The notes under the pieces: generated by a model
Database searches by the model: none
The model's input: the letters and a program-made list of their open reading frames with translations, nothing else
Told to the model about the DNA's origin: nothing
Assembly (NCBI GenBank): GCA_013153965.1
Contig: JAADDJ010000052.1
Location: 69,944-113,088 of the forward strand
Origin: Thermotogae bacterium
GTDB lineage: Bacteria; Hydrothermota; Hydrothermia; LBFQ01
Direction of reading: 5' to 3'
DNA: 43,145 bases
Shown: piece by piece, positions 4,760-13,362 of the stretch
Position numbering within the stretch: position 1 is the stretch's first letter
Layout of the letters: each line of letters opens with the position of its first letter
Translations under genes and position numbers: made by a program

Positions 4760-4765
4760 AGATTA
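4760..4765 (-). promoter_or_regulatory. Possible -10 box for leaderless guaB transcript
   Basis: TAATCT on the minus strand is 8 nt before the guaB ATG, and its TAA is the stop codon of the preceding gene. It matches TANNNT only loosely and guaB may also be read from the operon, so this is one of the weaker examples. Confidence 0.4.
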
Positions 4766-5713
4766 CTCCCTGAATCGCAGCTCTACCCTCTCGTACTTGG
4801 CACCCTGACCGAAGTATCCTCGCTTAACGTGGAGCTTCTCGGGATCTATGGGGGCGTTCTTGAGGATGAGCTCCTTGAGGATCTTGGCCCTGTCCTCCCA
4901 CAGGAAGGTGCCCTTGGAATACACATACACATCCACGGGCCCCTTGCCCCTGTAGTAATCTTTGACGTAGTTGAGCATCTCTATCACTCTCTCCTCCCCG
5001 TCGGGCCTGAGGGCGACTCTGCCGGGCTGGAAGATGTAATCCAGACTCAGGAAGACCATGTGATCCCCCTTGTCCGTCTTGGTGAAGAATCCCACGATCT
5101 CCGGAAGCTCACCGACCTCACGACGGCGGGCGCCGCTCTTGCGCTCAAGATACACCCTGTAGGTGAATTTCTCACCCGGTTTTATTACGGGTTTCCCCTT
5201 GTCGGAGAAGCCATCCCACTCTATCCTCTTGGGGAGGCCACCCCGTCCCTCAAAGGTCTTTACGGGGATACCGGCGGAGTTGTAGATGACTATCTTCCAC
5301 TTGTCGGGCTTGGGATACTTGCCGAGCTCTATGACTATCTTGTCGTGGATCATGCGCGGATATACGGGACGCTTGAGGAACCTGTTGTGGAGCTTGATAA
5401 CCTCCGCCAACTCCTTCTCAACGCCGGGAGGGAGACGCCTCTCAAGACCCCTCTCTCGGCGCACTATGAAGCTGTCCAGGGGCTCAAAGGGCCTCAGCTG
5501 AACATCTACTATGGGTTTTACCGCATCGTCTATTTTGTAGTCCGCCTCTCCGACTATCGTGTCCTCCGCTGCTATGTCCCCACCTCCCGCAGCCGCCGGG
5601 GCTTCGCTCCCCTCGGCGGGTGCCGCCTGCTGGTCCGCGGGTGGCTGCTCACCCTCCTGAGCGTACATCAGGAACGGACCTCCGATGAGCATGAGTATCA
5701 GAAGCCTTCTCAT
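4763..5713 (-). CDS. Periplasmic FlgD-Ig protein with degenerate OmpA-like C-terminus
   Basis: 316 aa with a conventional signal peptide ([19 protein letters not shown], cleavage probably after YAQ or nearby). An Ala/Pro/Glu-rich linker follows, then a conserved-looking stretch, then a FlgD-type Ig module at about residues 140-190 ([27 protein letters not shown]). The last 90 residues follow the OmpA/Pal alternation ([36 protein letters not shown]). They lack the usual GHTD-type peptidoglycan-contact motif, though an Arg-Ala (EDRA) remains. Its position right after exbB-exbD-exbD-tonB is where pal would sit in a Tol-Pal operon, so a periplasmic partner of that motor is the best inference. It has a strong SD (AAGGAGG). 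The Ig module is clear; the OmpA resemblance is weak. Confidence 0.7.
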
Positions 5714-5725
5714 CGTCGTACCTCC

Positions 5726-6817
5726 TTAACGTAGGACGAACCTAAAGGTTATTCTACCGCTACAACCGTCGGGTACGTTGGAGGAGAATACCCAGCCGCG
5801 CACGGCGTTCAAGGCGGCGTTGTCAAGGGCGGGATAACCGCTGGAGCGAGCGAGATTCAGGCTCTTGATGGTGCCGTTGGAGTTTAGAACGACCTGAACG
5901 ACGACCGTACCCTGCCAACCCTCACGGCGGGCGCGACGAGGATACTTGGGCTTGACCTTGCGCACGACCTTGCCCTTGATGCATCCCTCAATCTGGATAG
6001 CGCCGCCACCCTTAACCTGAACCGGCTGGCTGGGGCCGGCTATCTCCTCGGCCGAGACGGCGGCCTTGGGCACGGCCACATCCACGTTGGATACGGCCTC
6101 GGCGAGGCCACTGCCGCCTCCTCCATCACCCAAGGAGATACCCCCTCCGCCGCCTTCGCCGCCGAGTCCGAGACCTCCACCCATGGAGCCCTCAAATCCG
6201 GAGGATCCGAGGGATACGGCGGGCACGGCCTCTTGAGCGAGTATATCGGAGGTGCTCACCCCCTTGGATGGCAGGGCCACCACCACGTCGGCCGCCTCCG
6301 CGCTCAGGGACTCGTCCATATCGGCTATATCTATCTTGGCGGCGGTCTCAAGGTTCGCCTCAAGGTCAACCTTCTGAACCTGCACCTGCTCCGGGAGCAT
6401 CTGGGTGCTCGCTATCTGCACCTTCACGTTCTGGGGTACATCCACCTTCAGCTTGGGACCTCCGACCTTTATCGTCGGGCTTACGGTCTTGCTCAGCTTG
6501 GCCTTCAGATTTATCTTGTTGGGTTTGCCCGGCTCCTTCTTGTCTCCGGGCTTCTTCTCGTCCTTCTTCTGAAGGTCCTGCTTCTTCTTCTGCAGGAGTT
6601 TCTTCAACTTGGGCGGTATCTTCTTCTTCTTCTTAAGTTTCTCCTCAAGGAGCTGGATCTCCCTAAGGCGGGCCTCCTCAAGGGCCTCCGCTATCTGCTC
6701 CCTCATCGTGTAGGCGAGGATGGCCAACACAGCCACACCGAACCAGAAGAATACAGCCAACCTCTTCGTCGGCTTGTCCTCCTTATCCTCCGGCAGCTTT
6801 ACCCTTATCTTTGCCAT
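5726..6817 (-). CDS. TonB-family energy-transducing protein
   Basis: 363 aa. One N-terminal transmembrane anchor (about residues 19-39, LAVFFWFGVAVLAILAYTM) is followed by a Lys/Glu coiled-coil and a Lys-rich stretch (KKKKKIPPKLKKLLQKKK). A long linker with a Gly-rich tract (about 205-235) follows, then a TonB C-terminal domain (about 280-363: KPKYPRRARREGWQGTVVVQ, ALDNAALNAVRGW). In this family the protein spans the periplasm and passes proton-motive force from ExbB-ExbD to outer-membrane partners. Cys residues flank the C-terminal domain (EGCIKG and DGCSG) and could form a disulfide. The Lys-rich rather than Pro-rich spacer resembles TolA or AgmX/GltJ proteins as much as classical TonB. Its SD (AGGAGG) and place behind the two exbD genes support one operon and one complex. 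Confidence 0.9.
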   Translation of the reverse strand: MAKIRVKLPEDKEDKPTKRLAVFFWFGVAVLAILAYTMREQIAEALEEARLREIQLLEEKLKKKKKIPPKLKKLLQKKKQDLQKKDEKKPGDKKEPGKPNKINLKAKLSKTVSPTIKVGGPKLKVDVPQNVKVQIASTQMLPEQVQVQKVDLEANLETAAKIDIADMDESLSAEAADVVVALPSKGVSTSDILAQEAVPAVSLGSSGFEGSMGGGLGLGGEGGGGGISLGDGGGGSGLAEAVSNVDVAVPKAAVSAEEIAGPSQPVQVKGGGAIQIEGCIKGKVVRKVKPKYPRRARREGWQGTVVVQVVLNSNGTIKSLNLARSSGYPALDNAALNAVRGWVFSSNVPDGCSGRITFRFVLR

Positions 6818-6848
6818 ATTTACCTCCTATTATAAGGCCGATAGCGGC

Positions 6849-12307: not shown

Positions 12308-12805
12308 TTACCTCGCTTTTGGAGGGACCTTCACGAGAATGTACTGTTGGCGGGCGGCTCCTCCGAGCGTTCCTCCGGCTATACGCCTGAGGATGGCCAG
12401 ATATACTCCGGGGCTCACGGGCTTTCCGGCCGAGTTGTAGCCGTACCACGTGTAGGTGCATTCCCGAACGTGGGGATCGCTAACGTCCCGAGGCTCGTCC
12501 CGAGGGTACTCAAGCCGCCTCACGAGCACCCCGAAGGGGTCGTATATCTCCACGACGTCGGAGGGCTGGGTCTTGTAGAAGACGGCCGGGCGGGTGGTGC
12601 CATCGCCGTTCAGGGCTACGACACTGGGGAAGGCGAAGGAGTAGTACGTGTTTCCAAGTTCGTCCAGATTCAGCGTATCTATCGTCGGTATGGACTTCGG
12701 CCATACGTCGGAACAGGACCCCGTTTCCGGGCCTTCCTGGGCGTAAATTGCCGTTCCAACACCCAGAAGAACCACAACAGTCAAGGCTCTCAACAACCCT
12801 TTCAT
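12308..12805 (-). CDS. Exported FlgD-Ig-like protein
   Basis: 165 aa from the ATG at 12805. The chosen start gives a textbook signal peptide (MKGLLRALTVVVLLGVGTAIYAQ). It also has TAAAAT 11 nt upstream. The track start at 12853 overlaps the previous stop as ATGA and would add 16 residues, so a coupled longer form is possible. The mature part is short and ends in a FlgD-type Ig module (VEIYDPFGVLVRRLEY, then TWYGYNSAGKPVSPGVY). One Cys lies near the mature N-terminus (GSCSDVW) and one at HVRECTYTW. It sits between the lipoprotein and the PorV-like barrel that carries the same module, so a shared periplasmic assembly is plausible. Role unknown. Confidence 0.75.
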   Translation of the reverse strand: MKGLLRALTVVVLLGVGTAIYAQEGPETGSCSDVWPKSIPTIDTLNLDELGNTYYSFAFPSVVALNGDGTTRPAVFYKTQPSDVVEIYDPFGVLVRRLEYPRDEPRDVSDPHVRECTYTWYGYNSAGKPVSPGVYLAILRRIAGGTLGGAARQQYILVKVPPKAR

Positions 12806-12816
12806 TTTCAACGGGT

Positions 12817-12822
12817 ATTTTA
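12817..12822 (-). promoter_or_regulatory. Possible -10 box upstream of the 12805 start
   Basis: TAAAAT on the minus strand lies 11 nt before the ATG at 12805. The distance allows a leader of about 3-4 nt. It supports the shorter start but is not decisive, because a coupled start at 12853 also exists. Confidence 0.4.
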
Positions 12823-12849
12823 AGGCTTGAATCCGCATCGCATTCCCCC

Positions 12850-13362
12850 TCATTTGAGCAGCACGTTCCTCTTAAAACTTTCGTACTTACCCTTCTCCCC
12901 GAGCTTGGACTCAAGGGCCAACACCAACTTCTCCAACTCCTTGTAGTAAGGTGAGCCCTTCTTCACGGGGCGTATCTGGTACTCGTTGTCCCACGGCCTC
13001 GGGCCCAGTATCTTGAGGACGCCCTGAACCTTTATGTAGTTCAAGGTATCCCCCTCTACCCTTCCAACGTACGCCGTAACCTTCATCTTCGCCTCCTTCA
13101 CACCGTCAAAGACATACACGCAGCAGGAGACTCCCTTCTTCAGGGGTTTCCAGTCGGTCTCTATTATCCCCTCGTCGGGAGAGAACGTGGCGACGGCGTA
13201 TCCGTTCTCGTAGAGGACGTTCTTGAAGGTCTCTATTATGGAGTCTTGGCTGGCTTTGAATCGTACCTCTATAAGGTCGGGGTACCCCGACTTTGGGGGG
13301 AGCGTTGAGCAGGCTCCGAGAACCAGAAACATTCCCACCCCTATGACGGACAACCTTTGCAT
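12850..13362 (-). CDS. Putative outer-membrane or periplasmic lipoprotein
   Basis: 170 aa from the ATG at 13362. The leader MQRLSVIGVGMFLVLGACS has a lipobox (LGAC), so the mature protein should begin at the Cys and be lipid-anchored. The remainder is an alpha/beta domain. The stretch IIETFKNVLYENGYAVATFS followed by GIIETDW resembles the helix-grip repeats of NlpB/BamC-type lipoproteins, but I would not name it on that. The track start at 13416 is rejected because TATAAT lies 7 nt before the ATG at 13362 and only this start gives a clean signal peptide. It appears to be the first gene of the envelope operon and overlaps the next ORF's longest form by 4 nt. Confidence 0.8.
   Translation of the reverse strand: MQRLSVIGVGMFLVLGACSTLPPKSGYPDLIEVRFKASQDSIIETFKNVLYENGYAVATFSPDEGIIETDWKPLKKGVSCCVYVFDGVKEAKMKVTAYVGRVEGDTLNYIKVQGVLKILGPRPWDNEYQIRPVKKGSPYYKELEKLVLALESKLGEKGKYESFKRNVLLK

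Follow-up and report, generated by a model that had tools for sequence, protein, structure and literature searches.

The window analysed here, a 43,145-nucleotide stretch of DNA, carries nine consecutive genes on the minus strand (4763-13362); neighbours either overlap by 4 bp or leave a gap of no more than 31 bp. The source assembly spans 1.53 Mb and is 90% complete. The genome falls within candidate phylum WOR-3; its nearest relatives bear the name candidate division WOR-3, and Candidatus Caldipriscus is a member of the same family. The initial annotation described this run of nine genes, which is real and carries the domains named there. All nine are present, although the lipoprotein proves to be confined to the window's own family, and one FlgD-Ig gene is a reduced form of a larger one found elsewhere. 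Downstream, at 609-4751, lie guaB (IMP dehydrogenase) and a look-alike of a V-type ATPase subunit; both neighbours are retained in the window's own family only.

The first gene of the run (12850-13362, minus strand, as are all that follow) encodes an accessory lipoprotein found only in loci L061-L067. Its start at 13362 agrees with the lipobox LGAC; the longest open reading frame begins at 13416. Next come a short secreted FlgD-Ig protein of 181 residues (12308-12853; FlgD_ig, E = 8e-4), a PorV/FadL-type outer-membrane barrel with its own C-terminal FlgD-Ig domain (11045-12301), and an 854-residue, probably periplasmic TPR protein with ybgF/CpoB-type repeats (8479-11043; TPR_6, E = 2e-35). The motor genes follow: an ExbB/TolQ-like pentamer subunit (7759-8463; PF01618, E = 1.4e-25), whose profile matches both TolQ and ExbB structures, and two ExbD genes, ExbD1 (7316-7762; PF02472, E = 2e-17) and ExbD2 (6849-7304; PF02472, E = 3e-15). 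A TonB-like force transducer (5726-6817; TonB_C PF03544, E = 1.7e-20) and a 316-residue protein here called IgC (4763-5713) complete the set.

Seven of these genes form a conserved cassette: PorV-FlgDIg, large TPR protein, ExbB, ExbD, ExbD, TonB-like protein and the FlgDIg-OmpA-like IgC. This order is kept in dozens of WOR-3 genomes, and the cassette occurs with the same gene order in at least three phyla, WOR-3 and two others. For the survey, the surroundings of IgC matches were retrieved and each open reading frame was scored with profiles of the cassette genes; relatives were scanned with ExbD1 as the query, because the whole IgC alignment was too divergent. The seven-gene order was recovered in most WOR-3 loci examined and in some loci from outside WOR-3. 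Across 20 loci from the two other phyla it holds wherever the contig permits, apart from a few genes that the profiles did not detect. The initial annotation had proposed gene-order conservation as a check, and the order is indeed strongly kept across relatives. A chance arrangement is excluded, because the order persists in about 90 loci that bear most of the genes.

Counted by hand at a single threshold (E <= 1e-20), IgC matches occur in about 90 of 147 WOR-3 genomes; most genomes surveyed are metagenome assemblies. IgC relatives were also found in most genomes sampled from the two other phyla. Some single-contig or near-complete WOR-3 genomes have no IgC match at E <= 1e-20, so the gene set is dispensable. 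In some WOR-3 lineages, six loci (L084, L087, L089, L187, L189 and L190) contain an open reading frame of 358-368 residues that reads as an ExbB-ExbD1 fusion, located beside a further ExbB.

The outer-membrane component is a 418-residue protein. Its model and Foldseek matches describe a FadL/PorV-type barrel of 14 strands followed by an Ig domain (about residues 312-412), and the model lies close to FadL as well as to PorV. Pfam identifies the FlgD_ig domain (E = 3e-7); the PorV family model NF033709 matches at E = 1e-9, below its curated cut-off; and the PorV profile matches Flavobacterium johnsoniae PorV (6h3i_F) at E = 5.8e-13. In most lineages an eighth gene lies directly upstream of PorV, encoding a secreted Ig-repeat protein with Big_1 repeats and a C-terminal domain of FlgD_ig/CHU_C type. 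This protein comprises 450-570 residues, and 800-1750 residues in most loci of the other phyla. The Ig domain of the window's 181-residue protein aligns with the C-terminal portion of the profile for the upstream protein (E = 3.5e-9); by this sequence match, the short gene is a stub of the larger Ig-repeat gene. In the sister family, the loci examined have no homologue of the eighth gene upstream of PorV. The core therefore can do without the Ig-repeat protein in these two families.

The two ExbD subunits differ at a critical position. In Escherichia coli the proton-carrying residues are D25 of ExbD and D23 of TolR (PMC12215075), and work on Asp25 is cited in PMC8986121. By alignment, the window's ExbD1 retains this aspartate (D25 codon, 7688-7690), whereas ExbD2 has glycine at the equivalent position (Gly23 codon, 7236-7238); 5:2 motors driven by proton-motive force (PMF) carry the aspartate in both dimer subunits, and the window's pair does not. 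Among 80 loci, the aspartate is present in the first ExbD only in 54, in the second only in 19, in both in 7 and in neither in none. Another 20 loci, from the other phyla, comprise 8 with the aspartate in the first ExbD only and 12 with both. For the combined 100 loci, which are related to one another, the figures are 62 first only, 19 second only, 19 both and 0 neither; 81 thus have a single aspartate per ExbD pair, in one subunit or the other. Thinning the first 80 loci to less than 80% ExbD1 identity leaves 51 (32 first only, 13 second only, 6 both). Mapped on the ExbB tree, the aspartate state requires at least four changes, and one of the two other phyla adds a further one-sided loss. Control proteins behave differently: every WOR-3 TolR that covers the position keeps the aspartate, as do all TonB-system ExbDs checked. 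Of the four WOR-3 loci that retain the aspartate in each ExbD, three also bear two ExbB genes. Loci L085, L186 and L192 are ExbB-ExbD-ExbB-ExbD variants, likewise with the aspartate present in each ExbD.

Presumably, ExbD1 and ExbD2 pair with each other as a heterodimer. The chances are about even that the cassettes encode natural heterodimeric 5:2 motors with one aspartate per dimer, the second having been lost independently several times, from either subunit, to leave an asymmetric, half-active motor. No statement on a one-aspartate ExbD pair was found in the literature outside subscription journals and preprints. Rotation models for MotAB, ExbBD and TolQR are built on a pair of aspartates in asymmetric environments (PMC12215075); repeated evolutionary removal of one of them bears on such models. 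If they exist, one-aspartate dimers would constitute a natural experiment on whether rotation needs alternating protonation of both subunits.

IgC itself has no Pfam match. A profile built from 27 relatives matches the OmpA-like proteins YiaD/DotK and PA0833, with E values down to 9e-4, and matches FlgD weakly (E = 0.1-0.5). The AlphaFold model, whose pLDDT exceeds 85 from residue 111 onwards, has an Ig domain followed by a degenerate OmpA/MotB-like domain, and resembles PA0833, TssL, MotB, YiaD and FlgD. In peptidoglycan-binding OmpA domains the contact is made by a GxTD loop, which the family alignment shows to be missing from IgC. In Ton and Tol transducers, the motif SxxxH in the membrane helix docks the protein to its motor; nearly all cassette TonB proteins contain it, but those of the window's family do not. 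Loss of the histidine might be read as the mark of a dead system. This was rejected, since the TonB of a separate TonB system in the same family likewise is without the motif.

How, then, does the cassette relate to known envelope motors? In the ExbB tree, cassette sequences stand apart from WOR-3 TolQs and from TonB-system ExbBs, with moderate support for the cassette group as a whole (SH-aLRT 85) and a single outlier, L096, where IgC is missing. All six TolQs of WOR-3 lie outside the group, as does TolQ of E. coli. Strong TolB matches were obtained in 12 of 60 WOR-3 relatives, 10 of which also have an IgC match at E <= 1e-20 (in one, G041, the frame holds stops); the two TolB loci read gene by gene (L228 and L231) have the order Pal-CpoB-TolQ-TolR-TolA-TolB. 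The other ExbB in the window's genome (contig C10; L105:961-3083) begins an ExbB-ExbD-ExbD-TonB series followed by a plug-bearing TonB-dependent receptor. This second ExbB was considered as part of a competing Tol system and rejected, the locus being a TonB-receptor locus. Like Ton systems, the cassette combines ExbB, ExbD and a TonB_C protein. Taken together, these observations make it very probable that the cassette is a distinct machine, separate from the known Tol and Ton loci. The suggestion, made from the window alone, that a PorV barrel here belongs to a proton-driven envelope machine not characterised before is supported. The companion suggestion, that the operon mimics tolQRA-pal-cpoB with TolB and Pal replaced, is not: canonical Tol-Pal loci coexist with the cassette in relatives, the ExbBs group separately, two ExbDs stand where Tol-Pal has one TolR, and the loop for binding peptidoglycan is missing from the OmpA-like domain. 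Tol-Pal replacement is rejected on the ground of that coexistence.

The best reading as a whole, to which we assign a probability of roughly 0.4, is a distinct trans-envelope force machine that pulls a PorV barrel with a surface Ig protein. The ExbB pentamer would enclose the ExbD1:ExbD2 heterodimer in a 5:2-type motor, driven by proton flow through the sole remaining aspartate. The TonB-like protein would be the rod that spans the periplasm, with the PorV/FadL-type barrel as its outer-membrane partner; the C-terminal FlgD-Ig domain of PorV should face the periplasm, judging by the even number of barrel strands. The large TPR protein could serve as periplasmic scaffold, and IgC, with its Ig and OmpA-like domains, as an adaptor or anchor on the envelope side. 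The load would be the secreted Ig-repeat protein whose gene immediately precedes PorV and which the barrel would keep at the cell surface. The output, tentatively, may be display, export or movement of this surface protein, with functional likeness to GldLM/T9SS or to Agl-Glt. In favour of this reading count the conserved order, the spread of IgC, the homology of PorV to the T9SS shuttle PorV, the upstream Ig protein, coexistence with both Tol-Pal and a TonB system, the SxxxH motif, and the prevalence of one-aspartate loci. Against it count the reduction or absence of the Ig protein in the window's and sister families, the loss of the SxxxH histidine in the window's family, and the occurrence of SprA-like proteins irrespective of the cassette, which shows no specific tie to T9SS. 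The sole cultured WOR-3 strain, sy37, is reported to be non-motile (PMC12285271), which may also count against the reading.

Alternatively, the cassette could be a Tol-like system that keeps the outer membrane attached to the cell wall as cells divide; IgC would then take the role of Pal, and the TPR protein that of CpoB. The parts list is suggestive (ExbB, ExbD, TonB-like protein, OmpA-like protein, and TPR protein with ybgF-type repeats), and the nearest solved relatives of the ExbB are TolQs. However, the cassette accompanies canonical Tol-Pal in most TolB-bearing relatives, its ExbB belongs to a different group, no TolB propeller is encoded among its genes, and it is missing from some near-complete genomes. 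True Pal has a peptidoglycan-binding OmpA domain; IgC has the fold without the GxTD loop. These points make a Tol-like function unlikely. A functional take-over of Tol-Pal is possible in the window's genome and in the family and order to which it belongs, because no TolB above the cut-off was found in any of the three.

Equally unlikely is a T9SS-like exporter motor, in which the cassette stands in for GldLM and energises an SprA-like translocon of the phylum. The cassette has the PorV-type barrel characteristic of T9SS, and a single operon joins PorV, a gene for a substrate with a T9SS-signal-like domain, and a PMF-driven motor. SprA-like proteins of about 1850 residues, members of the T9SS translocon family, do occur in the phylum, and the GldM search gave no matches, although it was uninformative, the control genomes being silent as well. 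The window's genome encodes one such SprA-like protein at C59:25598-28207. Yet the cassette has no SprA gene, SprA scores are low for a family of that length, and SprA-like proteins occur in 59 of the 60 WOR-3 genomes searched, with or without a cassette (G013, G018 and G023 are cassette-free examples). No correlation links the cassette to the nearly universal SprA-like proteins, and hence no specific T9SS link is seen. To our knowledge, published descriptions restrict T9SS to Bacteroidota.

Weakest is a system for TonB-type uptake, whose motor would open the PorV barrel as a FadL-like channel and so admit a substrate that is hydrophobic or large: the TonB_C domain and the resemblance of the barrel to FadL fit, but an ExbB-ExbD-ExbD-TonB locus with a plug-bearing receptor is already present in the genome, no such receptor is encoded among the cassette genes, and we know of no PorV-family barrel gated by TonB.

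Should the force-machine reading be correct, a trans-envelope motor has so far gone undescribed in several little-studied phyla, and the PorV/FlgD-Ig link would extend T9SS-type parts to a non-GldLM motor. No description of a PorV-TPR-ExbB-ExbD operon was found in the literature outside subscription journals and preprints.

Several known systems share parts of this design. Tol-Pal, in E. coli and at the WOR-3 loci, has a 5:2-type motor, a TonB/TolA-type rod, and OmpA-like and TPR parts, but has a single TolR, a TolB propeller and true Pal, and forms a separate, coexisting locus. The Ton system of the same genome contains the same four motor parts, but it adjoins a TonB-dependent receptor, keeps the aspartate in both ExbDs and has an ExbB of another group. 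T9SS/GldLM shares a PMF motor, a PorV shuttle and a CTD-type substrate, whereas the cassette PorV bears a C-terminal Ig domain. Vibrio TonB2/TtpD2 likewise ties a TPR protein to an ExbBD-TonB motor, but in a gammaproteobacterium and for iron uptake only (PMC6957404).

Two others come nearer. The Agl-Glt gliding machinery of Myxococcus xanthus (AglR, AglQ, AglS, GltC/D/E/G and others; PMC3169522) combines a single ExbB-like protein with two distinct ExbD-like ones, and further has TPR proteins, a protein with a TonB domain, and outer-membrane partners. Its genes are spread over several clusters, PorV and FlgD-Ig parts are not described there, and, unlike the window's pair, AglQ and AglS are both described as aspartate-bearing (PMC9389320). 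The TPR-tolQ-tolR-tolR-vWA loci of the PVC bacteria share a TPR gene, one tolQ-like gene, two different tolR-like genes and a force transducer; the transducer is a vWA protein, and PorV and FlgD-Ig parts are again not described (PMC12204202). In composition the cassette is closest to these two systems, from which its PorV and FlgD-Ig parts distinguish it.
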